64,000 nucleotides of DNA from Halichondria panicea (taxonomy: Eukaryota; Porifera; Demospongiae; Suberitida; Halichondriidae), in contig NC_087390.1 of NCBI RefSeq assembly GCF_963675165.1, forward strand, positions 1,817,501 through 1,881,500, given 5' to 3'. Below the pieces are notes generated by a model. That model was given only the letters and a program-made list of their open reading frames with translations. It was not told the origin of the DNA and did no database searches. Position numbers and translations under genes: made by a program. The first letter of the stretch is position 1. Each line of letters begins with the position of its first letter. Below, piece after piece: positions 5,878 to 64,000 of the stretch.

Positions 5878-7272
5878 TTAGAGAGCCTTCACTTTCATAA
5901 ACAGTCTGAACTTGAGATAGTCGTCTTTGAGGTACTGAGTGTTTGTGTCAGCACAGTAACCTAGGCGATCCAGGGGGAAGAATTTGCATGAGTCGCCAAA
6001 ATATGTTGCTTTCCCCTTCAAAATTTTTGTTTCCGATCCTATGTTGTGTCCATGGTCACCCAGCTGGTTGAGCATCTGTAGGATAGCTACACCTTCTGTT
6101 TTGCTATCATCATGGTCTTTATAGATGCAGACTGACAAATGTGTTCCGGTACCAGATCCAACACCTTTTGTAAACGCTTTGAATGAGAACTGCCACCCTT
6201 GTGTAGTAAACCCTCCACTATCCCAGCGTCCATTGATGGGTTTTGTTTGTTGTTTTGTAAACTCAGTGAGAGTAAACTCGTGGCAAGAAAATCCATTTAG
6301 CAATAACAAATCATTCTGTATCTTCATTGTGTTGGCTTCCATCGTGGTCTTTAGGTCACTGACCTTTGTGTCAAGGTTTCTAGCTTGTTGCTCTAGATCT
6401 TGGAAGTTGGTATTGACTTTAGCATCAAGATTTTCCAATTTGGTAGCAACTTTTGCGTCCAATTGTTGAATCTTGGTATCAATGGTATTGCCCTGTTCCT
6501 TCACCTGTTTCACATATTTCTGCAAGTCGACTATTTGTTGGTCTTTCTCCTTCATTTTCTGGTGTAGCTCTCTCGTTAGTTGCAGGTTGATGAGGGTGGC
6601 TGTCAGGAGGTGGTGTTGGGCACTCTCTGTCATGTGACCCACCAGATCTCTTCGAGAAACCTTCACGTCACATCCAGCTCCAACAAACTCACACTCCACA
6701 AGTTGTAGGGGGCACTCCAGCAGGTGGCTATCAGCTTGGCAGCGAGGGACGATACCGATCTCACATTGGTTGGGACAAGGCAGGGGGTAGTTGTCACAGC
6801 AAGGGGTGTGGTCATTTGTTCCAATATCGTGGGTGGACACAAAGTCGCAATATTGGCAATTCCAGGGACGTTTTGGACAAGAGGTGGTGTGGTGGTTCAA
6901 GTCCCCCAGTTCCCCCGTCCACTCACACCCACTCTTTTTGTGGGGACAACGAACATTTAATTTGTTGATTGTGTTTCGTTTGAAGAACTTGTCTTTCAGT
7001 GTTTTAAAGGGAGCGTTGTTACACATAGGACAAGGCTTGTCATCTCTGATGATCCTTTGAGCAGCTTTCTCTGAGATGTGCTGTCCACAGCAGTCGGTTT
7101 GATGTGGCTCCACCAGAATCTCAAGAGTAACTGGACAGTACAAGTCCTTGTCAGGTTGTTCAACAAGGTCGTAGTCAGGTTCAGCTGGCTGGGTGATCTG
7201 TTCTGGGGGGTGGGTAGCAGCTGGTTCTTGGTTCCTCACTGAGTTAGAACAGTCACTGTTACTGGTAGCCAT
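5878..7272 (-). CDS. TRAF-like RING/TRAF-zinc-finger/MATH protein (TRAF-A), intact
   Basis: A single uninterrupted 464-codon frame. Residues 46-84 form a RING-type cysteine/histidine cluster (CPVT, CCGQH, CPMC). Residues 109-205 carry repeated Cys/His pairs of TRAF-type zinc fingers. Residues 222-312 are heptad-rich with a repeating LDAKV/LDTKV pattern, a likely coiled coil for oligomerisation. Residues 328-464 look like a MATH/TRAF-C domain (CHEFTL, FTTQGW, GTHLSV). Known relatives are cytoplasmic adaptors or ubiquitin ligases in receptor signalling. The gene has no introns and lies antisense between the lost middle and the tail exons of USP40 copy 0, so it was nested in that gene. It is the only one of the three TRAF copies without a frameshift. 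Start chosen at MATSNSD, shared by all copies. Confidence 0.85.
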   Translation of the reverse strand: MATSNSDCSNSVRNQEPAATHPPEQITQPAEPDYDLVEQPDKDLYCPVTLEILVEPHQTDCCGQHISEKAAQRIIRDDKPCPMCNNAPFKTLKDKFFKRNTINKLNVRCPHKKSGCEWTGELGDLNHHTTSCPKRPWNCQYCDFVSTHDIGTNDHTPCCDNYPLPCPNQCEIGIVPRCQADSHLLECPLQLVECEFVGAGCDVKVSRRDLVGHMTESAQHHLLTATLINLQLTRELHQKMKEKDQQIVDLQKYVKQVKEQGNTIDTKIQQLDAKVATKLENLDAKVNTNFQDLEQQARNLDTKVSDLKTTMEANTMKIQNDLLLLNGFSCHEFTLTEFTKQQTKPINGRWDSGGFTTQGWQFSFKAFTKGVGSGTGTHLSVCIYKDHDDSKTEGVAILQMLNQLGDHGHNIGSETKILKGKATYFGDSCKFFPLDRLGYCADTNTQYLKDDYLKFRLFMKVKAL

Positions 7273-7488
7273 ATTTAGGCTGGGTTAGTTTGTAAACAGC
7301 CACTCCCTCAGTTTATCTGTGGTGTGTGTGGTAAAAATAATCATTGCTCTGCATGCTCTGTGTATAACAATATACATTGTCTTTGTATCTGTACCCAATC
7401 GCCCTAAATGGCAACAAACAGTATATTCATCCATTAGCACTATAAACCATGCTAATTATCTGTTCCATCTTTCCCCTATTACACGTAG

Positions 7489-8274
7489 ACTACGTCAGAA
7501 ACTGTCGTCAGAGTCAAATGACAACAAAGGTTGCCTATACACAGTGCTGCACCAAGAAAAGGAACTATACAGTAAGTCAGTGAAGTGATACTGTAGTAAA
7601 TAATTCAGTTAGTCTCGAGGCTGGGCACGCTCTGCCCAATTTGTCTTGCTAAGAGGCTGGAATTCGAGATTACATTTCAGTGTACATGCTGTATGTAATA
7701 CGCTTATTTCCACTTTTTTCACCAAATACGTATTATGATATCCCAACAAATTTATCCCCCTCTGTTCTAAATGCCCCCATGCAGGACTACTATATATATA
7801 TACAGTGGTGTTCAACCTGTGTGTGAGGTTACCTGGAGAGAGGGGATATGGACCACACACTGAGGTAATGGTGGCTCTGTAGTGGTAATATTTAATTTGG
7901 TGCCATAACTTACACAGAAACGATGTATTATACTGTTCTCACAAATTTATTGGATCTACTACACGTATTTACGTATGATTGTGCGAAATGTGTACCCACT
8001 ATATACATTGTATTCCCATACCCGTAACCATGCACTATTTCCATTCCAATTTCACATATAATCCAGTGGTTAAAATCCAGACCCATCCGTGGATGAAGAT
8101 GCCTACTCTCTCACTGACATCACTATTCAAGAGACGGGGAAAAAACTACCCACAAGACCACCTCAACTAAATACACAGGAGCTAAGCAAGGAGCGTCTTC
8201 CAGGAAGTAAGAATAATCGTCTGGCCGCAAAGAAACTACAAAAGCAAATGTGGATCAGATCATCTACCCAATAA
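7489..8274 (+). pseudogene. 3' exons of USP40-like copy 0
   Basis: Exon pieces are at 7489-7571, 7785-7864 and about 8067-8274. The first two join in frame and give CVRLPGERGYGP, which resembles the late ubiquitin-like region of human USP40 (recalled as VRIPGERTYAP). The last piece encodes an acidic VDEDAYSLTDI stretch, like the acidic segment near the human C terminus, and stops at 8272-8274. The exons expected between these parts in human are not visible, and the last piece is not obviously in phase. The copy also lacks exons 11-29, so it is probably dead. The next copy starts about 620 bp downstream. Confidence 0.6.
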
Positions 8275-8762
8275 TTATACTGACACGCTGCAGCAAGCCC
8301 AGCCCCTCCCCTGCTCCCAACGCAACTCCATTCCCTCCCCACAAGGCTCCATCACCACCACTATCACTCAAGGTTGCTACTGCCCCTCTCAATCTGGATC
8401 TATAGCAGTCTGAAGGATCTCTACTCTATATAAGAACAGATTTTATGATAGTCTAAGGAACAGTTTGTGTGAACAGTTGTATAGTTTAGCAGGCTAGCAG
8501 GTAGAGTCAGCAATCAATGTTCAATTTTAGTTGGAAGTTTCAAGTATCTAGCAACATTTCTCGGGACCTTTATACGTGGGTGTAATGGCTTGTTGTCATA
8601 GTTACTTATCTGAGATGAGGGGGTGACTGACTATAAACAGTAGCCACAAAAATGAATTTCTTTAACCTCTGCACCATTATTTAATATGAGAGAGACTCTA
8701 AAATTAGCTAGCTATAGCCGCGGCCAAGCTATATTAAAGAAACTATAAAGACATAAGACAAG

Positions 8763-8776: not shown

Positions 8777-11700
8777 AGAGGGCAGCTCAGTAAGTCTGAT
8801 GTGGATCATTGATCTACTATTGTACAATTCCTACAGGGTTGTGTCCATTGCCGACCGATAGTCGACTACCCACCTGATCTCACCACACACACACACAATG
8901 CTTGAGGGTCTGTTTGACGAGGAGACTGTCGAGTACGATGCAAAGTCTGCAGGGGGTAACGAGAGCTCACGAGTGCCCCGCCCACCCACCCCCCGGAACA
9001 ACACGAGGCTGTGTGGTCTCAGTAACCTTGGTGCCACCTGCTACCTCAACTCACTGTTACAGACTCTGCATTTTACTCCAGAGTTGAGAGGTAGGCAAAT
9101 TTGTATCCTGTTCATAAAAGTTGAGTTTTATAAGTACTGAAGCGATGGGAATTAGCTACATAGGTGACTCGTGTACATGACTCTATTGGATGGTAGTATC
9201 CATGCAGTTTAGTTAGTCTTAGTGAATGAACATGACTGAATGCAAGTTTCTTTCGGGACAGGGGTGCTAGATCTACATCTGGGACAGTCTCGGCTAATTC
9301 GGGACAGTTGGCAGAGACTGGTATATGCACAGCTTGCTTGTAGATAGATCTAATACTTTTTTTAAAATTGTGATCATTTTCCTGTTCACAAAATTGATAT
9401 GCTGAATTTTTTGTCCGTAAATGATCCAGCAAATGTGGCAAGTGGGCAGATTTCAGTGTTATTAGTTCTCACCTCATGTGTCAGTGTCTGTTAGCTCAAC
9501 AAGTAATGTGCTCTCAATGAACACCACCATTAATGAATCTACCCACTGTACTGCAGAGGAACTATTCAAACTGACTGAGACAGAGTTGGGCATCTTCTCC
9601 ACTCAGGAGGGAGCAGACAACTCCATGGTAACCAGGAGCACTATAATTATTAACTATTTGCAGTTGTCTAGGAAAAATTAACGCCCTATATAGTGGAACA
9701 CACTTTATACAGTGTTTTACAGATGTGGCCTTTGTTGAGAAGTTCTACACAAACTGCTCATTTGGGACCTGTGGGCTTTTGTTCAGAGGGTGGTTGGTTC
9801 CATTGTAGTTTGATTGTTGTCATGGCTGCCCTCTGGCTGTTTAGCACATCTATATAATCTCTGTCTGTGCTCAGGTGCGAGTGATTCCTGTCCAGCTGCA
9901 GAAGTTGTTTGCCAATCTCCTGCTGCTCAACCAGCAGAGTTGCAGTGTGGACGCTCTCACAAACAGCTTTGGTTGGAGCAACAGTGAGGTATGTGGTTAA
10001 TGCAGTAACAGCATGAATATTGAATATGAAGTAGGGAGCATTGTTTGTAGAGCAGTGCTGATCCACTGTACAACTATACATCACCGAGGGTTACAAGTGG
10101 TACAGCCTTATAACACTCCAAATCTTGCTTTCACAATTAGAACTGGCCAACATAATCCACTTTCCCTTCTTCCCCAATATCCCCCACTCCCGCAATCCAT
10201 CTTTAACTTCAATTCCCCCTCCCTCTCCGTCAGATAATCTGTCAGGTATGTGGTCGTGTGAGTGAAAGGGAACAAGAATACCTAGACCTGGCCGTGGCCC
10301 TCTCCACTAGCCCCTCTTTGGAGGGGGTGCTCCAGGAATCGTACATCGAACAGGAGTTGCTGGAGGGAGCCAACCAATATCGTTGTGAGAAGTGTGGCAA
10401 GCTCGTCGACGCTAAGAGGGTGAGAGTTGCACTCTTAAATGACAGACTACTCGTTTACTCTTGCCATAGTGATGTGCATTTTCAAAGTGGTGATTTTTTG
10501 CCTAGCCTGTGGTAAACTTGTATAGGCCTAGAAGGTGGTTAGTACCGACCAGTGTGGGCACATCCCTGTAGTCTGAAAGACTTATAGAAGGCGCTACAGT
10601 TGTGAAGAAATTGCCATACAACTAAAAGCCTGTACAGCTTAATGAAAGTGATAATTATGTTATACAACGATGCTATAATGCACCATTGCTCTACATGTGT
10701 TTCATACACTTCTCAGGGCTGCAAGATTCGGCAGCTGCCACAGATTCTCACGATAGCCCTCCTCAGGTTTCTCTATGACTACGAGAAGGGTGAGAGATAT
10801 AAGGTAAGAAACTGATAGTAGTACAATGTTTGAGATATTTACTTAAAACCACAAATTGCATAATCGCTATGTATGAGAAAAGAAACGTTTTACGTACGTG
10901 TGCTTATAACTTGGCTGACCGTACAATAGACACCTTTCAAGTATTCCAAGCTATAATTCCTCCAGGACACTAGCAAATTCAAGTTCCCACTTGAGTTGGA
11001 CATGGCCCCCTACTGTGAGAATGGCTCGGTGGGGGGTAGCAGTGTGTACGAGCTGTTCTCGGTGGTCATTCACAGTGGCAGCACTCACTCCGGACACTAC
11101 ACTGCCTACATTCGGGACATTGATGGACTTGGAACTTGGGCTTCCCCCGTGAGTCAACCTAAATTCTCATTCGGTGGTTTCATATTCTTGACAATGTTAG
11201 GGAGTACCTGTTACAGTAAGAGTACAATTGTACAGGGAATGCCTATATAAAGGGGCACAACGTTTTGGCCATTATTATACAGAGTTGAAGAGTTGTTTTG
11301 TACATGCTCATTTTAGACCTGGATGCCTGGCTTTTATATCACAGTTGACCCCTCTTCAGTGGTGGAAGAGTTCCATTAATTGTAGTTTTACACATACTAC
11401 TCCACCCCCTCCCCTTCCCAGGACGAGGAAGTGGTCCAGTTGCCACGGGACCCGGCCTCTGGTAGTGTGGACCTCATCGACTTTGATAATCCTGCTGACC
11501 TCATGCTGGAGCTCCTCAAACAATGTGGGGGGTCTTCCACCATCTCCAAGCTCACAAAGGTGTGTGGGGGGTAGGGTTAATTTACTGAACAACCGTAGTG
11601 TGTTATGTTGGTGTATGTTAGGATATATGAATTCTGTTAGCAGTTTTATAGCACATGCATTGTTTGCTTTGATGGAAATTATCTGTACGCAGGCTCTACA

Positions 11701-12656
11701 GGACAAGACTGGAGTGACGTGGAATAAGAGGTTCAAGAAGCAGTTTGGGCCCATTACAAAGGTGTGGTCACTTCCCCAGGGTAGCTATAGTATGACTGTA
11801 AACTTAACTTACTTCGATCCATTATTGTGTATTTATTTGCCAAATATGTGTGATTTTCAATTATTATAAATGTGATATCAAAGTTGCCATTTTATGATAT
11901 AATTATTAACTACTCCCCCACACACACAGTTCCTGGGTAGCTGTCCTGACTTGTTCTCAGTCAATGAATCTAACCTAGTGTCACTGGGTGGAGCCAACAA
12001 GACAGACACACAACAAGGTGTGGTGTGGGGTATGAATCAAGTGATTGGTAAAGATCATTAATGCAACAAAATGACATTGACTCTTAGAGCCACGTACGAC
12101 TGTGTTTCATTAGGGGAATTTATGGATGGATGGATGGCTTAATGAATCTTTTTCTAATTGTCTCTTGCACACAGCTTCCTCTGGTGACAAGTCAGGGGGC
12201 AGTCCCCTTATTGTGAGGGTCAATGTAGAGCAGGCCGTCAATGCTGGGGGTGGGGAGGAGGCGGAGTCACAAGGTACAGCAGGTGACTATCATGCATCTC
12301 AAGTTACCCTTCCCTTCGTTTTTGATTTTTTTCTATAATGGCGAGAGATTTTCAACTACACCCCCCTTCGTTAAATCAATGGTTTGGAACCACTTGTTTT
12401 TTGTAGTCTTAGCATCTTGTTGTACAAACTTGACATTCCTGAAATGTAGTATCCATTTCTTCACTTCTTTCTCCCAGTCTCGACTGAAGGTGGCAGCGTT
12501 GGTGCAGTGAGGGGTGGAGCTAGCGAGGGTGGCCAAGACAAGAAGAATGGTGGGGAAGGGAAGAAAAAACCTGTGAAGAAAGAGTAAGTTAGGCTTCTTA
12601 GTGTACTATAATAATTATCGTCAAGTTTTAGAAAAATGGCATGGAGGGAGAAGTAC

Positions 12657-13066
12657 CGTATTTACTTGATTAAACACCCTCCTTGAATAAACGCCCATCT
12701 CGTTTAAACTCCCAGGGTAAAAGCTCTGTCTTTGTCAATAAACGCCCATCTTAAATAATTGCCCATATATGGGGTGTGGCACTGTGGGTGGAGCTGAAAT
12801 AGCAAATGGAACCCAGTTGCAAGCATGGCAGCATAGAATAATGATACTTTTTATGATGCATCAATGGCAGAGAGAGAGATACCGACACAGAGGGCACTCC
12901 TATGACTTAAATTTAAGCTGAGACAGCAGCCCAAAAAGAGCACAATAACTGCTGCTGTGCAAGAGTTTTAGAGCAGACATAACAATAAACGCCCTCCTGG
13001 ATTAAACGCCCCCTCTAAAGACTTCGATCTGGAATAAACGCCCGGGCGTTTAATCAAGTAAATACA
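12657..13066. mobile_element. MITE with TTTACTTGATTAAACGCC ends, GTAC site, copy 1
   Basis: Inserted in the intron after exon 12 of USP40-A. GTAC flanks both sides (12653-12656, 13067-13070), and copy B has the empty site AAGTACATGTAAAG at about 29730. The interior is rich in AAACGCCC repeats. Two more copies lie downstream of T2 and T4. No ORF. Confidence 0.85.
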
Positions 13067-14097
13067 GTACATGTAAAGGGTGTGTTGTATGTGTCAAACC
13101 TTTAATACCAGATCATGTACTTTATGGCCTGCCCCCTCCCCCTCACAGGTCCCCTCCGGCCCAAGGGCAGTGCTGGTTTGAGTTCAACGACACCCATGTA
13201 TCTCCCATCATGGCCAAACAGATGGAGAAGATGTACCAGGGCAAGCAGAGCGCTTACATGCTCTTCTACAGGAAGAAGGACATGCAAAGACCACCTCAAG
13301 GTATAGGGACTGCTGTGGTTTGCATATCATTATGTTCCCTCTAGAGGTATAATTATACATGTACGTAGGTGCACAGTTTTTCTGGTTTAGAAATGTATTA
13401 TAGTTGTCCTACATGTAGCCTATATGTTTTTGAGCATTGTAAATAACCAGGGTGATCAGTATAAACTGTGTATGCATGTGTATACGTCCCTGTACATAAT
13501 TATGCTCTTTCACACTTCACAGCGCTAGGCAACAAATTGTTTGGTGTTCCTGAGATATTTCAAGTGGAGGTGGCCCGGGCTAACACAATACTGGACCAGG
13601 AGAGGTGAGGGTAGTGAGGGTGTGGCCAACCACACCTCTTCACGAGTTGACTCAATATAGATATACACTGTGTCGTATGTTAGGAGTGTCATGTATTACG
13701 TATGTGTAATGGCCAGTCTGCTTGTTTCGGGTCATAGTAAAGATAGAGCTTGTGAATAGTAGAGAGAGAGACAGAGAAAACTATCTGTGTGGTTGCAGTT
13801 GTATGTGTATTTATGCCAGGTTACCTAAAGGCACAGGTGCTCCTTGAATTCATTTAAGTGCATGGTCAAACTAATTGTTATTGTGCTTCCACGTACGTAT
13901 AATTATGCTCTCTATCCTATAGAGTAAATGAATTATTCAGTGATTAGTCTAAGAGATTTTTATTGTGGCCATACATTTTTGTATTAATTAAACTTTTCAG
14001 GTATGAGTATGACATCGCCATCAACACACTTCAACTTATCATTCATTTCTCACTGGAGTTTGTGCTGGCCAACGGAGCACTGCAAAGAATTGACGAG

Positions 14098-15829
14098 GTG
14101 GGTTTGGTTTATAATTACATACCTGTACAGTGGCTTTAAATAGAAGCACCTCTATTAAAAATCTCACAAGCACCACAGTGCTTAAGTTTGCTTCGGTCAA
14201 AAAGTAGATAAGAGAAAAAGTAGAGACTCATATGATCTTCACGATAGAAGTGTAGAGCTATGATCACAGAACTTTAGTGATACATGTATATATATGACAT
14301 TGTGCTTTTCCTGTCAATGATTAAAAAAAGGGACAGATATGCATAGAGGTCAGAGTTCACAATAACTGCACATTTACAGCTCTCTTCCATGGTAGCTTTA
14401 TAACCAATAGGTAGCGCTTTAGTGCAAGGCAAACTCACTACATACATTTTGTGCGAACAGATGGTACTTGCTATAATTATACAAACGATTCTGAAGAGAC
14501 TGCAACAGCCTCGAGGCATAATCAGGACACTCAACCAAGGTCCAAATCAATAGAAGCATATAGAAATTAAACCCTTAAATTATGTAGGACACCACCGTCA
14601 ACAAAATGTCCATATCCTAAATTTAGACATTCACTGCGTGCATACATGCACATACTCTGCAACATGATTGTTAAATTAAAAATCGCCAATTATATATAAT
14701 TATATACAGTACCCATCAATAAAAGTTCCCATTCTGTTTGCGTAAAACACACCGTTCTTGTTTAAATGCATCAAAAAAACGCCCAATAAACGCATTGTAA
14801 TATGCAAAACGCTACCGTTTTCACGCATGTGCAGAAAATTGCTGAGTAAGCAGATTCGTTAATTTGTGATCGTGTGTACAGTGTAGCTACATGTAGGTAG
14901 CTTGTGTACTACAGTATAGCTGATTGTCTAGCGTTTTAATCCTTTTAGTTAGCCTTTTTAGTGCACCGTTTATCCCGTTGTTCTTGGTCTCGCATCAGCC
15001 CCAAGACTAAGTTGCCCTCCGTACAAGTTATCTGTGACCTGGAATGACCGTTTTTGAAGACCATTGTCTCTTTTCCAGTGCTGTATCAGTATGTCTGACT
15101 GTCTGCGTACTTTATAATAGCTAGCTCATTTGTACGGTATCATTGTGTAATTTTTCATAATGACGTCACCGTTTTAATTTATAATGAGGGAAGTGGTTGG
15201 TCGATGCAATCGGTTTAACGCTACCGTTTATACGTGCGTTTTAAGAAACAGAACGGGAACTTTTTATTGATGGGTACTGTACTTCAATTCCTTCCAAATA
15301 CACCTGCTGAGTATAATAATATTATTTACTATACCTCTGACATTCACTGTATGAATGGTATATAGAGCTGGGTGTTTGTTTTAACAAGGAGAGCGTTTTA
15401 TTATGAGCATTTTATCCACAGCAAATGTTATTTGATCGATACAATGCATGTTGTATGTAACACGAACGTGAGGTGGACATGTACTGCTAATGTTTGTTTT
15501 CATTATTTGCATTCATGTAAACAGTTTATCAAGGGACACTTATTGTTTGATGAGTTTTAACGAATAGTACAAATACTGAAACCTACTCACTTTTAATAGC
15601 AACGTGATTCATGGCCATTTAGGGATTGTAGTTATGTTCCACTATTATTACATGTATGAACCAACATTTTAGATAATTGCACAAGTGTGTGTCCGTGCAA
15701 GAGAATAGTTCACTCAGAAATGCAATAGAAACTGTTGGCACTAGATATTTTCTGCTAGCTATAGTACCTAGTTACAGTATAGTGTATAGCAACCATTCCT
15801 ATACATGCATGCATGTGTGTATGTGTTCA
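14098..15829 (+). other. Intron start and T1 upstream region
   Basis: Gene-free start of the large USP40-A intron. Apart from the MITE at 14707-15281 I see only AT-rich sequence. A stretch at 15362-15560 resembles the region ahead of the other transporter copies, but no TATA or CCAAT arrangement like those before T2 and T4 is evident. Confidence 0.5.
14707..15281. mobile_element. MITE with ATCAATAAAAAGTTCCCG ends, copy 2
   Basis: The ends read ACCCATCAATAAAAGTTCCC and its near complement at 15250-15281. The interior matches the element at 4939-5550 in inverted orientation. It lies in the USP40-A intron upstream of T1. No ORF. Confidence 0.8.
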
Positions 15830-19510: not shown

Positions 19511-19860
19511 TCAATTATTCTTTCTCATGCAGTATTGTTGTATACATGCAATTTGTCAATGGACACCAGTCCTTTCATTATCTTTGAGCTTGTGTTACAA
19601 TTGTTGACATGTACAAATACTGAAGCTATACATTCTTAATAGCAACATGACCATTTGGGAGAAATCTTATAATTATAATAATTATGCCAGCTTTTAGATT
19701 ATACATGTATAGGTGTGCTGTATACAAGAATAGTGAATAGTTCACTGAGGATTGCAGTGACTAGATATTTGCTCTCAAATTACTGTTACAGTATATACCT
19801 AGTTACAGTATCTCTGTAATTATAGTGTTTAGCAACAGTCGCTGCATGTGCATGTCTGTT

Positions 19861-34832: not shown

Positions 34833-34845
34833 GTACATACAGTAC

Positions 34846-43571: not shown

Positions 43572-44278
43572 GAGAGACTGAAGTCTGGTGACGTACTGCT
43601 CCTTGCAGAAGGGAGACTACCTCCCAAAGTGAGTGCACTGTTGTTCAGTAATGCATGTATTGTAAATGGATTCACACGTGTACATGAATGTACATGTATG
43701 TATATGCAAAATGACAGATTAGTTATGACATCAGTGTTGTCAGGAGTGCATGAATATTCGCACTCCTGGTATTGTTTTTACCACGCCCACGCCCACCCCC
43801 TCATATATGTCCAGGGTTTTATTCGTCTCCAATCTACTCCCCCGAGTCCAGCCCTTCCCCTTACCCACCAGCTGACCTCCCTCAGGACGTACGTTCCCTA
43901 ACTGGGTTCAACGCACGTGTATAGTGTTCTGACAGTATGATCACACAAGCTACGTATAATGTACACATGTACATGTATGTAGTATTTTTTAGTAGCCCCG
44001 CCAGATGCTTTCTCATCTTGCACAGAATTCTGTACACAATACATACACACACACCTCACTCTTCACACCCCTCACCACACGCCCCCACAGGTCCCCCTCC
44101 ACCTGGTCCCTCCGTCCCTCTGCCACCCCCCTGTTCCCGGACAGCTGGACGAGGTCGGTGTTTTGGAGATCAGTAAAGAGGCCACTGTCGAGGAACTCAA
44201 GATCACCATCCTTGCACTACCTACTGTATGTCATGTGACAGTCATAGCCGGTACAGTCTACTGTAGCTTCACTATATG

Positions 44279-44443
44279 CAGGGCGGGTCGAAGAGATATT
44301 TTGAAAAAAGGCTACTGAAAGCTCACAAGAGGCTGTTTTCCTTGGCTCTGGCCGCCATTTTAAGTGGAGTTAGTCTACATATTATTATTTTGTGAGAGTT
44401 TGTTGGCCTGGAAAGAAAAAAACGCTTCGACCCGCCCTCCATA
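44279..44443. mobile_element. Short MITE, GGGCGGGTCGAAG ends
   Basis: GGGCGGGTCGAAG near 44281 and CTTCGACCCGCCC near 44427-44439 form inverted ends. It lies in intron 28 of USP40-B and is not present in copy C. Confidence 0.65.
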
Positions 44444-51600: not shown

Positions 51601-54600
51601 CGGATAATCGAGGTTCTACTGTACCTGTTGGTACAGTAAGAGTATAATTGTACAGGGAATGCCTATATAAAGGGGCACAACGTTTTGGCCATTATTATAC
51701 AGAGTTGAAGAGTTGTTTTGTACCTGCTCATTTGAGACCTGGATGCCTGGCTTTTATATCACAGTTGACCCTCTTCAGTGGTGGAAGAGTTCCATTAATT
51801 GTAGCTACACATACTACTCCACCCCTCCCCTCCCAGGACGAGGAAGTGGTCCAGTTGCCACGGGACCCGGCCTCTGGTAGTGTGGACCTCATTGACTTTG
51901 ATAATCCTGCCGACCTCATGCTGGAGCTACTCAAACAATGTGGAGGGTCTGCCACCATCTCCAAGCTCACTAAGGTGTGTGGGGGGTAGGGTTAATTTAC
52001 TGAACAATCGTAGTGTGTTAATTATGTTGGTGTATGTTAGGATATAAATTAGGATATAATATTATTATGAATTCTGTTAGCAGTTTTATAGCACATGCAT
52101 TGTTTGCTTTGATGGAAATTATCTGCATGCAGGCTCTACAGGACAAGACTGGAGTGACGTGGAACAAGAGGTTCAAGAAGCAGTTTGGGCCCATTACAAA
52201 GGTGTGGTCACTTCTCCAGGGTAGCTACAGTATGACTGTAAACTTAACTTACTTCGATCCATTATTGTGCATTTACTTGCCAAATATGTGTGATTTTCAA
52301 TTATTATAAATGTGATATCAAAGTTGCCATTTTATGATATAATTATTAATTACTCCCCCACACACACAGTTCCTGGGTAGCTGTCCCGACTTGTTCTCAG
52401 TCAACGAATCTAACCTAGTGTCACTGGGTGGAGCCAACAAGACAGACACACAACAAGGTGTGGTGTGGGGTATGAATCAAGTGATTGGTAAAGATCATTA
52501 ATGCAACAAAATAACATTGACTTTTACCATGACTGTGTTTCATTAGGGGGGATTTATGGATGGATGGCTTAACGAATCTTTTCCTTAACCATATCTCTTG
52601 AACACAGCTTCCTCTGGTGATAAGTCAGGGGGCAGTCCCCTTATTGTGAGGGTCAATGTAGAGCAGGCCGTCAATGCTGAGGGTGGAGAGGAGGCGGAGT
52701 CACAAGGTACAGGTACAGCAGGTGACTATCATGCATCAGTCTCAACTTTCCCTTCCCGTACATTTATAATATCGTATGGTGAGAGACTTTCAACTACATC
52801 CCACTCTCCATCAATCGTTTGAGACCACACGTTTTATAGGCTTAGCATTTGTTGTAAAAACTTGACACTATCTGAAATGTATAGTGTCCATTTCTTCACT
52901 CCTCACAGTTTCAACTGAAGGTGATAGCGTCGATGCAGTGAGGGGTGGAGCTAGCGAGGGTGGCCAAGACAAGAAGAATGGTGGGGAAGGGAAGAAAAAA
53001 CCTGTGAAGAAAGAGTAAGTTAGGAAGAAGTACATGTAAAGGGTATTAATTTAGTATTCTGTTCTATGTCTGTGTGTCAAACCTTTAATACCAGATATCG
53101 GCCCGCCCCCTCCCCCTCACAGGTCCCCTCCAGCCCAAGGGCAGTGCTGGTTTGAGTTCAACGACACCCACGTATCTCCCATCAGGGCCAAACAGATGGA
53201 GAAGATGTACCAGGGCAAGCAGAGCGCTTACATGCTCTTCTACAGGAAGAAGGACATGCAGAGACCACCTCAAGGTGGGGACTGCTGTGGTTTGCATATC
53301 GTTATATTCCTTTCACACTTCACAGCGTTAGGCAACAAATTATTTGGTGTTCCTGAGAGATTTCAAGTGGAGGTGGCCCGGGCTAACACAATACTGGACC
53401 AGGAGAGGTGAGGGCAGTGAGGGTGTGACCAACCACACCTCTTCACGAGTTGGCTCAATGGATATACACTGTGCCTTTAGGAGTGTCACGTAATATACAT
53501 GTGTAATGGAATAGCCGTTCTGCAGTTTTTATGAGGGAAATCTCTTGCTGTTACTGTTTGGGTTGTAAAGTAGAGAGAGAGACAATTAGTGGTTGCAGTT
53601 GTATGTGTATCCGACTAGAAAAACATTTGCAATGTGAAAAATTGCTAGGATTGGCCAGGGGAACCACAAAAAAGCGTGGGAACAAGAAATCAGACGAGAG
53701 CATAACTCCAATCCGTTACAACGTCAATCACATGTATACTGGTAGTTTTCCCATGTTTTCCCAGCCAATATGCCACGCAATTTTTACTGGTGGAGTGATG
53801 ACCAATCCCTATATATATTTATTATACATTAGAATGTGGGGCACATAATCATGATGATTTGTGATGAATTGATGTTCCTAATACATGTAGTGTAGAGCAA
53901 AGGTACACACAGTCCATCCATGCGTAGTAACATGCACGGACCGTACTGGTGACTGCATGGAATGATGTGGTGGATGGAAGCTGATAGGTGGATCTGGAAC
54001 ACAGTCTATTATTTAATATACTATGTATTGTACACGTTCATGACGTTGTAACGGATTGGAGTTATGCTCTCGTCTGATTTCTTGTTCCCACGCTTTTTTG
54101 TGGTTCCCCTGGCCAATCCTAGCAATTTTTCACATTGCAAATGTTTTTCTAGTCGGATTCCCTTTCTTTTTCAGTACAGTTTACGTATCATGACATACAT
54201 AAGTGGAACGTCAAGAGGCAGTACAAGAAGAGAAGACAGGACTAATCAGATATCTTCTCGAATATCTCTGGACTAATAATTATAGTATAATGAGTAATAA
54301 TTTATTGCTTGATAATTATTTTAAATTTGCGAATCAGTATTAAATGACAGCCATTTTAAGAGCATGATATCTAGCCAGTGCATATAGCATGCCTGTCAGA
54401 GAAAGGGAGCTAGAGCTGAACAGTGTGAAGAAAAGGAACACCTCAGGCTCTGGAAAAGCACTGCTGCACTGATTTTAGGCGCACGGTTTATTAGCCACGC
54501 CTATCTATTATTATTGGCCACAACACAATTGCTGAGTCATTAAAGATGGCGGAATTGTCTAGGTAAGAGAAATAGAGACTGAGAGGTCTTCTGCCTCGTG

Positions 54601-57600
54601 GAAGCAATCGCAAATCTGAAGAAGCGCTTTGTAATCCAGGTTGTAGTCGTTTGGAAACCCTGTGCAGAATGTCCTGGAGATGGCTGTACTTGGAGTAAAT
54701 GCTGGGCAAGAAACTTACTTACTCACTTACTTACTTACTTACTTAGTCAGTCAGACAAAGAGCGGTGAAACGTCGAAATAGTGCAATTTTTAAAATGAAA
54801 ATATTCATTCATTAAAATGTTTATGGATTATGAAATGAGAGATACAAAGAGAGAAAAGGCTAAATAAACTATCTGTTCAGCCAGTTTCTTGATGTGGCCT
54901 TTCCCTGCAGAGATAGAACAGTTTGAACATGAGTCAAAATAATTGAAATATTGCTAAACACGGGCAAACCCACTGCCAATCCTATGTAAAACCTACTGGT
55001 TTTACTAATAACTGGGTCATAAAGGCACAGGATTGTATGGTGCTCTTTGGATTCGTGCATGGTTAGCAGGTTCTTGTTCTTGTGCTTCCACGTATGTATG
55101 GTCTCTATCTTATAGAATAAAATATTTATATTCGGTGATTAGTCTAAGAGATTTACTTGTGGCCATAGTAAATATGTATTAAACTGCACAGATATGAGTA
55201 TGACATCGCCATCAACACACTTCAACTTATCATTTATTTCTCACTGGAGTTTGTGCTGGCCAACGGAGCACTGCAGAGAATTGACGAGGTGGGTGTGGTT
55301 TATTATGTTACGGAAATAATTATATAATTATTTAGTTGTACGAATGTGGTATATAGAGGTGTTTGTTTTTACAAGGAGAGCTTTTTATTATGAGTACAGT
55401 AGAACCTCGCTAATCTGAATAGAACCGGACCAGACCCCATCCGAATACATGACATTTCTGGATTAACAATTGATTAATGAATAATTATTATTAACGAAGA
55501 CACTTTTGTACATGTATTATGATAATTATTACTGTGGCCAGAAGGGAAGCTGCTAGCTGGAATAGTATTTTATCTCTCCAATACAGTGAGTCTTGTGAGC
55601 TCTCTTCGTTTTCTTTGCAGGGGCCATTATATTTGAGCAGTTTATTATCGCTGATTCAGCAAAGAAAGTTAGATTGCGCATGCGCAATAGTTTATTCTAT
55701 TGACAGCCCCTCCTCTTTTTCAGTTTGCCGTTTTATCTGGATTTCGGAGTAAAGAGGTCCAGATTAGCGAGGTTCTACTGTAGTGAATAAGTTTTACCCA
55801 CAACAAATGTTATTATGCCTCGGTGCGCATGCGCAAGCGAGGTATACGGTAGTGTGTTTGTGTGTCTGTGTGTGTAGACTATTTCAGCTGCTCAAGGATC
55901 AATGAAGTGCAAGTAAGAGTTTCTATAGGCTTCTAGTCATGTTTTCTTGGCTTGCAATGGTTGGATTTGCAAAATAAAGCTTCGTTCTCGAGTTATGCCT
56001 AGTTTTGCTTACTTGGAATGCCATTGCAGTCTTTTCAGAAGAGTCCGTAGCAAAATTTGTTCATCGAGTGTTGCTACTCTACTTAGTAGTTAGCTCTGCA
56101 CTAGAACGCTAGCTATTGGTAGCTGCAGAGTGCTGAGTGAGAAGAGAGCTGCAAGGCTCTGCTGACCTGCTGACTTGCCATAATTTTAGACTTGAACTTT
56201 TGGCATCGATCGTTTTTAACAACAATCATGGTCGATCATTACCCACTATTTGAGTTTCCCGCATGCAGCAAAATTATTCGTCATGATAATTATAAATCAA
56301 TCAATGTGTGTATAAAAGCTAGCTATAATATTATGTTATGTAGCTTTGGCACCTCCACCGAGGCATCAGCACCTGCGGTGCTTTCATTTATTTTTAGTAG
56401 TGTTATAGATGATACGACTTGTGTATAATTGTAATCACAAACGTGGGATATTTTATACAAGTTGTACATGCATGTACTGCTAACGTTTGTTTTCGTTATT
56501 TGCATCTACATGTATGTAAACAGTTTCTCAATGGACACTCATTGTTTGATGAGTTTTGAGGTTATATTAACAATAGATGGAATGTATGAATATTGTACGG
56601 TGGCCCTGAGCGCTACTCTAGTTGGTAGTTCATACTTGATAGTTCAAACGCGTAGTTGGTAGTTCGCAGTTGCTACTTGATAGTTCAAATGCGTAGTTGG
56701 TATAGTTCGCAGTTGCTACTTGATAGTTCAAACACGTAGTTGGCAGTTGGCAGTTGGTAGTTAGGAGTTGGTAGTTGGCAGTTGGCAGTTGGTAGTTGGG
56801 AGTTGGTAGTTGGCAGTTGGCAGTTGGCAGTTGGTAGTTGGCAGTTGGCAGTTGGCAGTTGGCAGTTGGTAGTTGGGAGTTGGGAGTTGGGAGTTGGCAG
56901 TTCGTAACCTAAACTTTGCAACAATAATTAGCTTGCTTTTAAATTATGATACTGGCACCGATATCTAGCTGGCCTAAGACGGCAATATTAATCTTATATG
57001 TACACATCTAGGTAGGGAGATCATTTCAAGTCTAATCCTCATGTACCTATATTTCCAGATCCCAGCAGGGAGGGGGGAATTATAGAAACAGGTTTTGCAT
57101 GGCACTTTTAGAGGCTATTGAGGTTATTTAAAGTTATGGTTAAAAGATTAGAGGCAGTGCAAAGATCTATATACAACATTTGCTAACTGCAAAGTTTAAA
57201 GGTCACGAACTACCAACTGCTAACTCCCAACTGCCAACTGCCAACTGCCAACTACCAACTGCTAACTGCCAACTGCCAACTGCCAACTCCCAACTCCCAA
57301 CTGCCAACTCCCAACTGCCAACTGCCAACTGCCAACTGCCAACTCCCAACTGCCAACTCCCAACTGCCAACTGCCAACTGCCAACTGCCAACTACCAACT
57401 ACCAACTGGAGTAGCACTCAGGGCCACCGTAATATTGAAACCCACCCACTCTTAATAATTATATAGCAATGTGATTCATGACCGTTTAGGGAAAGTAGTA
57501 TGTTTGAACCAGCATTTTAGACAATTTGCACAAGTGTGTGTCCGTGCAAGAAAATAGGGCAATAGATTGTTCTCCTATAGCTATATTTATAGTACCTAGT

Positions 57601-60600
57601 TACAGTATAGTGTGTATAGCAACCATTTCTATATACATGCATGTGTGTATATATATATGTGCGTGCATGCGTTTGAATGAGACAAACTAACTCTACGAAC
57701 GGAGGGAGCCCTCTGGTGTCAAGGAATGGCTGCAAGTGCAAGTACAGAGTGAGGTGGTTCTATTCCAAGGGAGCCTTTCTCGTTCTGGTCTGGATTATGC
57801 TGTTGACTATAGCCTGTGTATCAGTCTCCCATGTATTTCATGTGTTTCGTCAACGACTTGATGTCAATTTTGTAATTCCGAAATGGCTCTATACTATCCC
57901 AGTTGTGTTTGGTTTGTTTGGAGCTGTTTTCTCAGGATGGCTAGCCGACGCTAAGCTGGGGAACTACAGAGTGATGAAATACAGTTTTGTACTGTTGTTC
58001 CTCATAAGTTTGCTTTCTAGTGCCGTCACCCTAGTTCCTGACATTACACATTACGTGTATGTTGTGAGTGTCTTTTATTGCATAGGTTGGAATCTCTTTG
58101 TAGTAGCTGTGGTAGCATGCTTTGTTACCTCACTACAACTAGGCCTGGATCAGATGCCTGATGCTTCATCTTCCAATATCACTAGTTTTATTGCCTGGTT
58201 TGCATTCAGTATGTATGCTGGTATTTGGATCCCTACTGTTTCTGATATGCCCATTAATTCCGGTGTTTCGTGTAACAGTCAATTATCACACTGGGTTGTC
58301 CAACTTTACAGTTTGCTGCCACCTTTGTGTATGAGTGTTGTTCTTATTCTTGACTTCCTCCTAGCTAAAAATGGCTGATAATTGAACCAAAGTCACCTCA
58401 GTCCCTCAAAACCATCTACCTTGTTCTTAAGTTTACTGCTAAGCACAAAGCTCCCCTCAATCGCAGTGCTCTCACATACTGGGAGGAAGACGTACCTTCA
58501 AGAATGGACCTGGGAAAGTCGAGATACGGTGGACCATTCACTACAGAGCAAGTTGAAAATGTAAAGACCATCCTACGTTTGTTGCCCCTCTGCTTAACGC
58601 TATGGCTTCTTGGGTGCTCACTTGCACTCTTCCATCCACTAAATAATGCTAGTGTTTATCCTCCTGATTGGAATTGTTATGTTTCAAAGCTTCTGCCCTT
58701 GTTCACATATCACTATTACTGGTGTGGAATGGTTTGGACTGTCTTTTATGAGTTCGTGCTATACCCAGTGATATGTAACAAACTTCCCAGCATCCTTAGA
58801 AGAATTGGAATAATTTCTCTCCTTATCACGGTTGTTAGTATTGTGTTTCTAATTATGGAACTACTAAAAAGCAAATACGGTGATTTAGATGAAATCCATT
58901 ATGTTACAATCGTCTTTATTTCAATTTCTAGAGGATTGCTCACAATCTTCCTTTTTAGTGCCATGATGGAATTAGTTTGTGCTCAAGCTCCATACAACAT
59001 GAGAGGATTGTTTGGTGGATGTATGGTTTTGGTGTTGTTATCATCTCTTAGTATTGCTGAGATTTCTCCATCCCTGCGGCAAAGTCACATTAACAATGTG
59101 TGGGGTTGGAGTAGGCATCAGTCTTCTTGGATTCATCCTGTACTCCCTCCTGGCTCGATGGTACAAGAGGAGAGTTAGAGACGAGGACTACAATGCACAC
59201 AGAGTGGTGGAGGAGGTCTATGATCGATACTTGTCAGCTCAGCATTGACTATAGTTTCAGTTTTTAATTACATATACTACCAATGTACAATATGTGCATG
59301 TAGTGCGCTTTAGTGTATCGTTTTTGTGACATTTATATATACGTATCGATATATCTATTAGTAGACCTGTTTATATTGAATGAACTGTATGTGATTAATT
59401 GGTGTTTTGGTAGTGTGCCAAGCTCAATGCAGAACTGCATGCAAGCTACATAGTATAGTTTGTGTCAGTCTATATTTACCGTATGCACCCTATAAAACTC
59501 AGTTTCTGAGGGCTCATGCAGATCCTTGCTTTTACATGTTATAATTATTTATGCATGTGCCACTAGCTGTGTCTATAGAGTACTTCTTGTATACTGCACC
59601 TTGCTTATACTATACTTATGAAGCTAATGTATATATACCACCTCTATACTGCAGGGCTCTGATCCTTGTGTGCTGAGTGTAGACCGAAGGAAGAGCATTG
59701 GTGAGCTCAAGGAAGCCATTGCTGAGGTAAGTATATACCAGAGCTATAATTATACTGTGTGTTCTTTGTATGGCTACATGATATAGAACTTACTAGATTT
59801 ATTATGGGAAGCCTTGTAGTCACAGAAGAGCCGAGTTATTGTAGGGAACTCACTACATTGAAAACCAATGTCAAACAAGTTCGTGATCGGTACCCACTGA
59901 AATAAATGAAGACATGCACTTAACAGTTTGCTAGTGAAAATATCAAATGTTTTTCTCCCTCTTAGACGTACTCTAGTCTCTACGATGCTGACCATGTAGT
60001 AATACACACAGCCAAGACCCTCCCAGCTGGCACACACCTCTACGACCTGGTCTCAGGTATATGTAAAATCCTATCTCTCTCAAAAATGTGTAGTGTGCTC
60101 GATCCATACAATAATAGTCCATTACAACTCGTATTATGTAATTCATTCTTTATTCAGGCAATGATCAGACGAGTGTGGCTGATGCTGGTATCACCAACAA
60201 CTCTCAGCTGTTTGTGTGGGACGGTCAGACTGTGGGAGGTGAAGCCATAGCGGTGGGATGGTCATGTGATCCGATCCTGCTGCATGTGACGTACCCATCG
60301 GAGGAGGGAGAGTGTGAACTGAGCAGTGGTTTCCCCAAGAACTCAACTATTAGTCAATTGAGGGTGAGATAATTGTGTTGATGTTCATTGAGTGAGTGTC
60401 GATCGAAGAAAGCCTTCATTTTTGTATTTACATGAATTGTACTATTGTGTGAGATATCCTTAATAGCTTGGTACATTGATTAGTGAAACACAGTATCGTA
60501 TGCACATACGTACGTATAGCTATATTGCTTCATCCCAAATGGGCAACTGTTAAAAATCTTTGTCTCCAAATTATAACGTATATTAATGTGTCTCCATGTG

Positions 60601-61359
60601 TGATAGGTGTCCCTGTCGGAGCTACTAGAGATCCCTCCCAGTCATGTGACCATCAGCCATGTTAAGCTCTCTGAGATACAGGACACACAGACACCCATCA
60701 TTGTCCTATCACCTAGCAAGGTGAGGGAAGGTGTAGTCTATAATCATTAGGTTCCCCCACCACCCTCGTGTTGTGTGCAGATCGGTAATAGTTTGCGTTG
60801 ATTAATCATTACTTGCATGTCTATCTACACTAACTGTCAGCAAGATTCCTCCCTTTTATAGGATGGCAGCACTCTAGAGGAGCTGAAGCTACAGGACGGA
60901 GACAGGCTCACAGTGGAGAGGAGTATCAAGAAAGGGTGAGGTTCTTGCTAGAGAAAGCATAATTGAAGTTTATAGTCTCATATTAATTTTTGTCGTATTC
61001 TTTTGAGGTTCATAATTGAATTCTAGTGGTCCAATTTTATTGATATTTGTAATTTTCTGATAATGAGTTCGTCCAGATGATGATCGTTTTTTAGTTCATA
61101 AAATGTTGTCAGACCTAATTTTGGCACCAAAATTGGCCTTGAAAATGACTTAGTTGAGCATTCATAAAAATTAATCGTGAAATCTTGTAATTAGAACATT
61201 AAGTTACGGTGGTTTAAAGATACCGTACATGCATATAATAATAACTAGATAACATCATGTATTGTCATGGTTGCAGTGTGAAGTCACTAGCTCACTCTGT
61301 AGCAGACAAACACAGCAAGATGCTGTCAGTCATCATTGAGAGCAGGCTACTGGTGAGAA

Positions 61360-61433
<74 letters not shown>

Positions 61434-61470
61434 CAATAATGGTTACAGCTCTACAGTTTAATTTTTTTAA

Positions 61471-61511
<41 letters not shown>

Positions 61512-63679
61512 CACCCTTCAATAATGGTTACAGCTCTACAGTTTAATTTTTTTAACTATAGTGTACGTATAATCCTATAATATAGACCACCCTCACCCTT
61601 CCCCTGTATCCCCAGCCTCTCACTGATGCTACTGGCTTGTATCCTGTGTTTCCAGTGGAGGTAGGAAAAGACGAATGCGTCGCCACACTCAAAACAATGG
61701 CCTTGACAACAGCTAGCAACCAGCAATTTATTGGTGAGCATAAATAAATCTGCTATAAGAAAGTGTTGATTAGAATTTTAAATTGCAGGTGAATGTCGTC
61801 TCCGTGGTGATGATGATGTCACTGGAATAGGGCCTCCGCTGTATGAGTCTCAGACACTGACTGACGCTGGAATCAGTCCTGGACAGAGGATCATTCTGGA
61901 ATCAGGCCAAGCACCAACCAGTAATCAGGTGCAACCATATATAATTACATAATTATGGTGCCGCTTTTATAATTACATTACATGTATAGCGAGACTATAG
62001 TATATAATTAATAATTAATAATTATTATACAAAACAAATGTTATAAGTATGGTGCTATATTTATATTTTTATATTTATGGGGGGAATGTCCAGGGGCGCT
62101 TAAGTACATGTAAAAGCGGCCCTGTATTTCATTGGACAGCTAAATTTAATATTTCCGTCCTGGCTGCGGGATCTCTGCAGGTTGCTCTCAATTGTCAGCT
62201 GTTGAGCTCTGGTGTGTCGAGTGTGGGTGTGTGTGAGGTGATCCTGGGGAGGGATGTGACTGTAAGGGAGTGTATGTGTGTCATGGTGACAGCCCTCGGA
62301 CTGACGGGTGAGCTGGAGCTAGGGGAATACCCTAAACTACACCTCCAGCATTTCCATTAGTATATCTGATCACATTTGACTATAATAATTATTATATATA
62401 TACATTAATAATGTTGTCTTAATTCTCGGCTAATGTGTGTGCTTCTTTAGAGGTCCATTTTACGTATCTATCTAATATTAGAAGTACTCAATGCATATAA
62501 TTATACCACTGTATATGTAGGCGGAGACTGGCACCTGCAAAGGACCAACTGGTGCGGAGAAGCAGCTGACGTGTTGGAAGATGAGGTGTGTGCATGGAGG
62601 CAGCACCTGCATGACTGTAGTACATGCAGTACAGTGCAGTAACTGTATAGTACTGGCCGGGTTAGGGTTAGGGTTATCTTCTCTATACATGCAGTGATGT
62701 GTTAATAGTTTGCCAACTGGTGGTATAATTTTACTAGGATGCCAGTCTGGAACAGGAGAGACTGAAGTCTGGTGACGTACTGCTCCTTGCAGAAGGAAGA
62801 CTACCTCCCAAAGTGAGTGCACTGTTGTTCAGTAATGCATGTATTGTAAATGGAATTCACACGTGTACATGCTTGTACATGTATGTACGCAAAATGACAG
62901 ATTAGTATTGTTTTTACCGGCCCACCCCCTCGTACATATGCAGGGTTTTATTCGTCTCCAAGTGTACCTCTACTCCCCCGAGTCCAGCCCCTCCCCCCAT
63001 CCACCAGCTGACCTCTCTCAGGACGTACGTTCCCTAGCTGGGGTTCAAGGCACATGTACAGGGCATGCTCTGGCAGTATAATATATAGTATGCACAAGCT
63101 ACATACATGTACATGATTATTTTAGTAGCCCCACCAGATGCTTTCTCATCTTGCACAGAATTCTGTACACAATACACACACACCTCACTTTTTACACCCC
63201 TCCACCACACGCCCCCACAGGTCCCCCTCCACCTGGTCCCCCCGTCCCTCTGCCACCCCCCTGTTCCCGGACAGCTGGACGAGGTCGGTGTATTAGAGAT
63301 CAGTAAAGAGGCCACTGTCGAGGAACTCAAGATCACCATCCTTACATTACCCGCCGTAAGTCATTTGACAGTCATGTGATAAAAAATGTTATATCAGCTC
63401 CTAGATTCAAGTATAGTAAACCATTAAAGCTCCCTGTATTATAGTGGCCATCTTGACAGGCAAGAAAATCTCTAGCCTTTCAATTGTGCGGCATTGAACT
63501 ATTACAGTTCTTTTAGAATGGTTTATAGACTCAGGTGTTTGCATGGTCCTAAGTTACCCCCCCCCCCCCCCTCCACAGATGGAGAATATGACGGTACCGT
63601 TGCTAGAGTTACTGAGAGTGAGGGAAGTGGTGAATGGCAGACCAGCCAAGATATTCAAACTACACAACCACACTTTGAG
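48639..63679 (+). CDS. USP40: USP40-like ubiquitin carboxyl-terminal hydrolase, copy C (3' end beyond window)
   Basis: Exons: 48639-48831, 49305-49375, 49625-49738, 50047-50172, 50303-50488, 50804-50890, 51047-51229, 51837-51974, 52133-52201, 52370-52457, 52608-52706, 52909-53014, 53123-53274, 53326-53407, 55192-55288, 59655-59726, 59966-60056, 60158-60363, 60607-60720, 60862-60935, 61277-61352, 61616-61733, 61789-61928, 62181-62307, 62521-62585, 62738-62812, 62944-63024, 63221-63355, 63579-63679. All phases join with no stop. A cysteine protease that removes ubiquitin: Cys box NLGATCYLNSLLQTLHF (exon 1), QQHDVQEL (exon 4), a CxxC pair, CQVC and CEKC (exon 5), and His box HSGHYTAYIRD (exon 7). 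Exons 13 on match human USP40 from memory (QGKQSAYMLFYRK, FVWDGQTVGGEA, GDWHLQRTNWC). Intron 55289-59654 contains T5. The only host copy that looks functional. Confidence 0.85.
51344..51621. mobile_element. pogo/Tigger-like MITE at TA, copy C only
   Basis: Ends CAGTAGAACCTTATCCGG and complement, with TA on both sides. Copy B has the empty site GGGAGTACCTGTTGG at about 28742, and copy A also lacks it. The insertion therefore followed the duplication. Confidence 0.85.
53611..55008 (+). mobile_element. 1.4-kb element with 116-bp inverted arms at one end
   Basis: Filled site in the intron after exon 14 of USP40-C; copy B has the empty site GTGTATAACTGGGTC at about 30335. Arms 53611-53727 and 54041-54156 are inverted copies around a 310-bp core, followed by an 850-bp unpaired segment. 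An inverted, further-interrupted relative is at 191-3395. No ORF. Confidence 0.8.
55397..55780. mobile_element. pogo/Tigger-like MITE at TA, copy 2
   Basis: Matches 30722-31105 in position and sequence, so it was carried along by the unit duplication. Confidence 0.75.
55812..56395. mobile_element. Partial copy of the 38873-41403 element
   Basis: Matches pieces of 38985-39240 and 40795-41130 joined together, so it is an internally deleted relative without clear ends. Located upstream of T5. Confidence 0.6.
56596..57431. mobile_element. Foldback-like element with minisatellite arms
   Basis: Flanked by ATATTG (56590-56595 and 57432-57437). Ends TACGGTGGCCCTGAG and complement. The arms (about 56610-56905 and 57205-57415) are tandem arrays of a 7-bp unit, GTTGGCA or GTTGGTA, in opposite orientations, around a 290-bp unique core. 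Long frames in the arrays are by-products of the repeat. Confidence 0.85.
57677..59248 (+). pseudogene. SLC15/POT-like transporter T5, broken
   Basis: The start MRQTNST and the first 233 codons are intact. A single A is missing from the homopolymer at about 58368-58373, shifting the frame. A second lesion, a net gain of seven bases near 59074-59085 before the last helix, shifts it again. Between them the frame is open at 58504-59178, and the shared C terminus is open to 59248. Only transporter in the USP40-C intron. Confidence 0.85.
59249..59654 (+). other. Intron end before exon 16 of USP40-C
   Basis: Gene-free sequence homologous to 24090-24533; nothing else seen. Confidence 0.6.
61360..61510. 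repeat. CA microsatellite, duplicated
   Basis: Long CA runs at about 61360-61430 and 61473-61508, separated by a block that follows both runs, so run plus block were duplicated. In copy B the same intron has only about eight CA units (42266-42284). Confidence 0.95.
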
Positions 63680-64000
63680 GTACAGTACGAGGGCGTACCG
63701 TGTTTATTGATGTCAGTAATACGTAGTTACTACAATGTAACTATTACTTTGTACGTGCAGGTATAGTGTTTGGAATCATTAAGGGCATTCCGTGTTTATT
63801 AGTGTGTATACATATAAAATTAATATCGCTGGATAGTGTTTGGAATCTACATATTATTATTATGTGTGAGATTGGCAGAGCGTTTGCACGTAGCCTTTAT
63901 ATAGGGTTATACGTGTGTACAACGATGTCAAATTTTAAATATATATTTTGTACATATATTTTGTGTACTGTTATAATTCAGGTTTTCCATTTACTGTGTA
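63680..64000 (+). other. Intron after exon 29 of USP40-C
   Basis: Homologous to 45002-45320, which leads into TRAF-C. By analogy a further antisense TRAF-like gene and the last USP40 exons should lie beyond the window. Confidence 0.6.

Follow-up and report, generated by a model that had tools for sequence, protein, structure and literature searches.

Genes that lie within the introns of other genes are frequent in animals, several sponges included. One comparative account gives 2,432 nested genes for Aphrocallistes, 3,358 for Amphimedon and 5,032 for Sycon, together with 83 for Oopsacas and 0 for Ephydatia, and attributes the last two numbers in part to annotation method (PMC10282587); for a ctenophore, 2,357 nested genes have been reported (PMC8527503). 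The locus described here resembles animal nested genes of this kind, in which a longer gene holds intronless or small genes, of either orientation, in its introns, and differs from them in that two unrelated families share one host, and in that the host and its nests are arrayed in tandem. A case in which host and nested genes have multiplied together is that of the LRRTM genes, which are nested in alpha-catenin genes. Like one of the families described below, the nested genes in that system are antisense and were multiplied with their host, with later loss of the host or of the nested gene in some lineages (PMC3933685). Whereas that account concerns dispersed pairs in vertebrates, the present copies form a local array with incomplete inner hosts. 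In the literature on sponge USP40, on tandem co-duplication of host and nest, and on intronless sponge TRAF genes, we found no direct precedent. Because gene nesting is widespread in animals, several sponges among them, and because co-duplication of host and nest is already on record in the published account of LRRTM, the array is a further example of nested genes and not a new kind of arrangement.

We read the locus as a tandem array of USP40-like genes in which SLC15A4-like genes (sense, intron 15) and TRAF-like genes (antisense, intron 29) would be nested, an interpretation of the DNA to which we assign a probability of roughly 0.85. The window is a stretch of 64,000 nt from Halichondria panicea (contig C14, 1817501-1881500). 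All coordinates follow window numbering, such that a C14 position equals the window coordinate plus 1817500, and values that are negative or exceed 64000 lie outside the window. The region examined comprises 224 kb (-119999 to 104000, the window with 160 kb of flanking DNA), and the genome searched comprises 131 Mb in 39 contigs.

A USP40-like host gene in head-to-tail copies

Comparison of the window with itself revealed head-to-tail blocks that share approximately 76-96% identity. Probes for the head, the catalytic exons, the middle, the transporter, the TRAF copy and the tail located USP40-like heads at -3415 (unit H0), 8898 (unit A), 48639 (unit C) and 67264 (unit D), along with a headless unit B that begins at 28254 and further remnants to the left of H0, the leftmost of which (U1, at approximately -114.6 kb) is a decayed USP40 head. 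When the head and catalytic exons were searched against the genome, 29 of the 35 matches fell on C14 in the array stretch, including U1 at 43% identity, and the remaining six, which lie outside the array, showed 34-58% identity; no second USP40-like locus was found by this search.

Exons were read by eye from three-frame views and then checked in each unit, with unit C as the reference. Since splice sites were chosen by eye with phase in view, agreement of phase is by itself weak evidence. In C, exons 1-29 keep an open frame and the phase and are flanked by AG and GT, and the same 29 exons recur in D, where exons 30 and 31 follow in phase. Unit D as a whole (67264-89276) comprises 34 in-phase exons with GT-AG introns and no stop codon, and a 35th exon that completes an open frame of 1,289 aa; it is the only unit with all of its exons in phase, and it lies entirely beyond 64000. 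The protein encoded by exons 1-15 of D matches the Pfam model UCH (PF00443, 2.7e-53), with USP47 and USP7 as its best matches in the PDB. Two motifs seen by eye, GATCYLNS in exon 1 of D and HSGHYTAY in exon 7, correspond to the Cys and His boxes of ubiquitin-specific proteases. The protein encoded by exons 16-31 matches UBL_USP40 (PF25822, 1.4e-30; 105.6 bits against a cut-off of 23.2), and the two domains bear out the earlier note in its description of the host as USP40-like. All seven matches to UBL_USP40 in the genome lie in units B, C and D, and a search of the PDB with the C-terminal half yielded no useful match. The host is like USP40 in possessing UCH and UBL_USP40 domains, and the tail of D may resemble the human tail; the difference is that the inner copies of the array are without exons 32-35.

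Because the UCH part precedes the transporter copies and the USP40-specific part follows them, the transporters are placed within the gene. An alternative would be a plain gene cluster without nesting, in which USP40 ends before the transporter and two further genes follow, one made up of exons 16-29 and the other of the tail exons. The arrangement is read from genome sequence, and in B, C and D exon 31 sits in a short open frame with an ATG at its start (MPPCR before the exon), which is compatible with such a cluster. We nevertheless consider it highly improbable, given that UBL_USP40 occurs after the transporter, that no ATG lies in the open frame upstream of exon 16 in C and D or of exon 30 in D, that exons 15 and 16 of units A, C and D meet in phase 0 (exon 16 of B being frame-broken), and that head-type matches of at least 67% identity, like those to UBL_USP40, are confined to the array stretch.

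Codon changes between C and D comprise 7 synonymous and 5 nonsynonymous changes in exons 1-15 (p 0.015) and 16 synonymous and 7 nonsynonymous changes in exons 16-29 (p 2.5e-5), and eight later exons of B and D differ by 18 synonymous and 13 nonsynonymous changes (p 2.5e-4), D being common to the C-D and B-D tests. These changes support coding on either side of the transporter, with purifying selection on both halves of the host. For exons 1-29 of C and D, dN/dS is 0.155 at a dS of 0.03; relative to D, it is 0.116 for A (15 exons), 0.146 for H0 (8 exons) and 0.218 for B (14 exons), values that rest on unbroken exons, with absent or frame-broken ones excluded, which favours low estimates. A dS of only 0.03 between the exons of C and D is also what might be seen if haplotypes had been placed end to end during assembly. 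This explanation is very unlikely, as the units differ in large deletions, in an insertion present in C, in the two TRAF copies of D and in their 3′ ends.

Intronless copies in introns 15 and 29

Between exons 15 and 16 of the host lie intronless SLC15A4-like copies in the sense orientation, in agreement with the initial proposal that SLC15-like genes occupy a USP40 intron. A phmmer search of the PDB matched SLC15A4 (3.2e-10, over approximately 310 residues), and all seven matches at E of 1 or below were to SLC15A4. None of three SLC ORFs matched a Pfam model up to an E of 1, and among the 55 genome matches listed for PTR2 (PF00854) none lies on C14; because PTR2 is unmatched, we refer to the copies only as SLC15A4-like. 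They share this match with SLC15A4/PHT1 and differ from it in that the array copies are intronless and unmatched by PTR2 and have at least 87 matches in the genome, mostly on C14 and C6. Structure prediction by AlphaFold for one SLC ORF, with 3 sequences, returned a mean pLDDT of 36.7, a value too low to be informative.

Intron 15 of unit A, which follows USP40-like exons 1-15 (8898-14097, plus strand), contains two open copies, A1 (15809-17398, plus strand, 529 aa), which is the ORF that matches SLC15A4 at 3.2e-10, and A2 (19846-21408, plus strand, 520 aa), as well as a copy with one stop codon, A3 (22569-24086, plus strand), and one relic. Intron 15 of B holds one open copy, B1 (32173-33720, plus strand, 515 aa), a partial copy (34792-35510) and a fragment, and the copies in this intron of C (C1, 57677-59245, plus strand) and of D are broken into three and two frame pieces, respectively. 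A satellite with a repeat unit of 7 bp (AGTTGGC) occupies 56738-56902 and recurs in inverted orientation at 57208-57408, approximately 300 bases away. Three of the five near-full-length copies in the window are open, and in the 224-kb region, with fragments counted, 11 of the 36 SLC rows are open from end to end. Ratios of dN/dS range from 0.39 to 0.65 for the 6 of 10 pairs that are valid (the 4 pairs with copy L1, an out-of-frame cut with 27 stops, being excluded), and are looser than those of the host.

The second nested family had been described as an antisense TRAF-like gene in another USP40 intron, and intronless copies in this orientation do lie between exons 29 and 30. The TRAF-like ORF in H0 matches zf-TRAF (5.4e-10; 40.3 bits, above the cut-off of 27) and, below the cut-off of 32, MATH_2 (7.6e-5; 23.4 bits). 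Weak matches in the PDB are to TRAF4, TRAF6 and LNX, those to LNX and TRAF6 covering RING-region residues 38-137, and no Pfam model for a RING was found in the ORF at a threshold of 0.001. The copy in H0 (5878-7284, minus strand) is open for 464 aa from its first methionine and lies between the last surviving early exon and exons 30-31 of that unit. Copies at 26455-27833 and, in intron 29 of B, at 45622-47039 (both on the minus strand) are each broken into two frame pieces; an antisense copy in intron 29 of C (64296-65682) lies beyond the window; and D carries two open antisense ORFs, 81458-82909 (483 aa) and 83800-85179 (459 aa). One of the three copies in the window is open, as are 4 of the 9 TRAF rows over their length in the 224 kb. 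In all six pairs compared, dN/dS (0.29-0.49) is looser than in the host.

For both the SLC15A4-like and the TRAF-like intronless expansions, most of the matches listed lie away from the array stretch, and chance is for this reason the simpler reading of a ubiquitin hydrolase wrapped around a RING/TRAF gene. It is very unlikely that the nest is functional as such, with antisense TRAF transcription or the intronic transporters regulating USP40 in a ubiquitin/immune module. Remnants to the left of H0 keep the same gene order, and mammalian SLC15A4 is described as acting in innate immune signalling, both of which would fit such a module; however, a shared order is expected from the copying of one unit, and among the matches listed 21 of 87 for the transporter and 14 of the 161 counted genome-wide for TRAF fall in the array stretch.

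Tail exons and the duplication joint

Exon 29 ends in phase 2. In unit D, exon 30 (85375-85440, 66 nt) and exon 31 (85555-85624) are both in phase, and exons 29-35 are phase-continuous across the two open TRAF ORFs, so that at the level of sequence the suggestion that TRAF is intronic holds. Exon 31 (TTTVVFNLCVRLPGERGYGPHTE) is present in four copies within the 224 kb and varies at 2 of 64 sites across all four surviving tails; the intron that precedes it is 72-93% identical between copies. Exon 30 is poorly conserved. In H0, where exons 30-31 occupy 7483-7872 (plus strand) and exon 31 reads RLPGERGYGP, it measures 89 nt and has lost its acceptor AG; in B (exons 30-31 at 47242-47590, plus strand) it measures 75 nt, and the codon formed where it joins exon 31 is TAG, with phase kept. 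The 77-nt exon 30 of C (at 65874) breaks the frame if used, its omission keeps phase, and C may either skip this exon or be broken. The 66 nt of exon 30 in D and the 75 nt in B keep phase.

Exons 32 and 33 of D were found with a probe for the putative human USP40 C-terminus, a lead that was chosen before exons 32-35 were read. Beyond exon 31, the best matches to this probe were three collinear ones downstream of D, at 85844-85996 (32.3 bits), 86492-86569 (30.8 bits) and 88882-88926 (24.6 bits). Since the best of 60 shuffled probes scored 25.8, the third match would not reach significance by itself. Exons 32 (85850-85996), 33 (86471-86569) and 34 (88864-88964) have GT-AG ends and keep phase, and exon 35 (89156-89276) closes the frame of 1,289 aa, or of 1,288 aa if an acceptor 3 bases further on is used. 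The tail of D thereby extends 3.6 kb past the one originally described, and the donor that follows its exon 31 is plain (gttgtg). Neither by DNA nor by protein do exons 32-35 have a second match in the 224 kb besides D. As exons 28-31 alone and exons 29-34 alone matched no Pfam model, the USP40 identity of the tail exons rests on phase and on the putative human probe. Two other assignments were considered and dropped: one took exon 31 to be the last exon, with VMVAL or VVVAL before a stop codon in all four copies, until exons 32-35 of D were found, and the other took the tail exons to be a separate gene.

The C-terminal part of USP40 had earlier been assigned two exons downstream of the TRAF gene. 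The RLPGERGYGP exon is exon 31 and lies in phase with the USP40 chain; the acidic DEDAY reading, by contrast, is not a USP40 C-terminus. It arises when the 3′ end of a kinase gene that lies upstream, carried in at a joint between units, is read out of frame. The DEDAY DNA occurs again just upstream of U1, in a place that gave no match to exons 30 and 31, and from the last tail to 104000 it is unmatched. Upstream of U1 it forms the 3′ end of a kinase open frame of 343 aa in one piece (L009:3905-4933; Pkinase 2.5e-69; nearest solved structures MARK, AMPK and TSSK), whereas the inner units have these bases in a different frame, as DPSVDEDAYSL. Kinase-like pieces on the opposite strand also occur near this open frame.

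The joint, CCAGTGGTT(G/A)AAATCCAGACCCATCCGTGG, is the same in all three junctions examined, H0/A at 8064, B/C at 47791 and C/D at 66416. Together with the kinase 3′ end it occupies 8064-8430, which holds the DEDAY reading, and, in a second copy, 47791-48125 (both on the plus strand, with approximate right ends). To the right of the joint lies a close kinase match, and to its left the DNA is like intron 31 of D up to the start of exon 32, with many gaps, which makes the exact left breakpoint less sure. Successive joints are 39,727 and 18,625 bases apart, the larger spacing spanning both A and B because the joint between these units was lost in a deletion at 28254. The simplest reading of this structure would be one duplication, bounded by the 3′ end of the kinase gene and by USP40 exon 32, that was then recopied.

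Decay of the inner units and probable history of the array

The units differ greatly in their state. H0 has a frameshifted head and a shortened exon 10, its exons 11-29 were unmatched in an exon-by-exon test, and only its exons 30-31 and TRAF copy lie inside the window. Unit A gave no match for exon 4, which reads HDVQEL in C and D, nor for exons 18-27 or exon 31; the segment at 24534-25127 (plus strand) retains exon 16, a broken exon 17, a stub of exon 28 and exon 29, and exon 30 survives at approximately 28 kb. Unit B (28254-45001, plus strand) retains exons 7-9 and 12-29, with no match for its head or for exons 10-11, and the frame is broken or stopped in exons 13, 16, 22, 23 and 27. It starts in exon 6 at the 28254 deletion, which fuses intron 30 of A to exon 6 of B and has removed exon 31 of A, the joint and exons 1-5 of B. 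A perfect 87-bp tandem duplication at 43399-43574 in this unit is, because it is perfect, probably young. The host of unit C spans 48639 to approximately 66216, with exons 1-15 (48639-55288) and 16-29 (59655-63679) open on the plus strand with AG/GT ends and exon 31 at 66147-66216. Its intron 14 contains an insertion of approximately 1.4 kb (53610-55008) that is absent in B and D and is possibly a mobile element; an inverted copy of part of this insertion lies at 190-1053 (92.7%). Judged from sequence, D is the only copy that looks complete.

The earlier note had proposed that the whole nest was duplicated, and had placed it at 5878-64000. Head-to-tail copying is real, but those units that fall in the window are either incomplete or, in the case of C, doubtful at exon 30, and the proposed span starts inside the unit whose head lies at -3415 and ends before the TRAF copy of C. 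The condition of these units raises the possibility that the entire array consists of pseudogenes, with the nested ORFs as passengers lacking a working host. H0, A and B have lost exons, none of the four units H0, A, B and C has exons 32-35, and across the 224 kb, with fragments counted, 25 of the 36 SLC rows and 5 of the 9 TRAF rows lack a frame that is open throughout. We regard a dead array as unlikely, however, since D is open from exon 1 to exon 35, host dN/dS is 0.12-0.22 (with frame-broken exons excluded), and D has both of its TRAF ORFs open.

What can be read directly in the DNA is the chain of exons, the positions of the introns, the strands of the nested copies and the duplication joint, and the history that we favour for the array would run as follows. 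Nesting would have come first. The left remnants keep the same order: exon 13 lies at approximately -113.7 kb, SLC copies come next, remnants of exon 29 follow at -79 and -52 kb, and a TRAF copy lies at -51 kb. For this reason we infer that the nest predates the array; exchange between copies could instead have spread the shared order. The array then probably began as a single tandem duplication, in which the 3′ end of the kinase gene lying upstream was fused to USP40 at the start of exon 32. Unequal crossing-over would subsequently have multiplied the unit, and the inner copies, without exons 32-35, would have decayed by deletion and frameshift, with the leftmost remnant retaining the kinase neighbour and the rightmost unit, D, retaining the C-terminus. 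We would expect D to be a working USP40 gene that is transcribed through both nests, with the nested ORFs having promoters of their own and being removed along with the introns. The introns would in effect have carried the transporter and TRAF genes as the array expanded. A more speculative extension, which we think rather unlikely, is that the USP40 introns serve as a lasting nursery, in which transporter-like and antisense TRAF-like genes multiply because decaying USP40 copies go on providing homology for unequal crossing-over, and that the antisense TRAF genes in intron 29 of D tune USP40.

The joint between units is still legible, and it points to a host and two nested families that would have been amplified together, followed by decay of the host. 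The locus also carries two warnings for annotation: tail exons that lie past a nested antisense gene can be mistaken for a separate short gene, and a fragment of a gene imported at a duplication joint for an extra exon.
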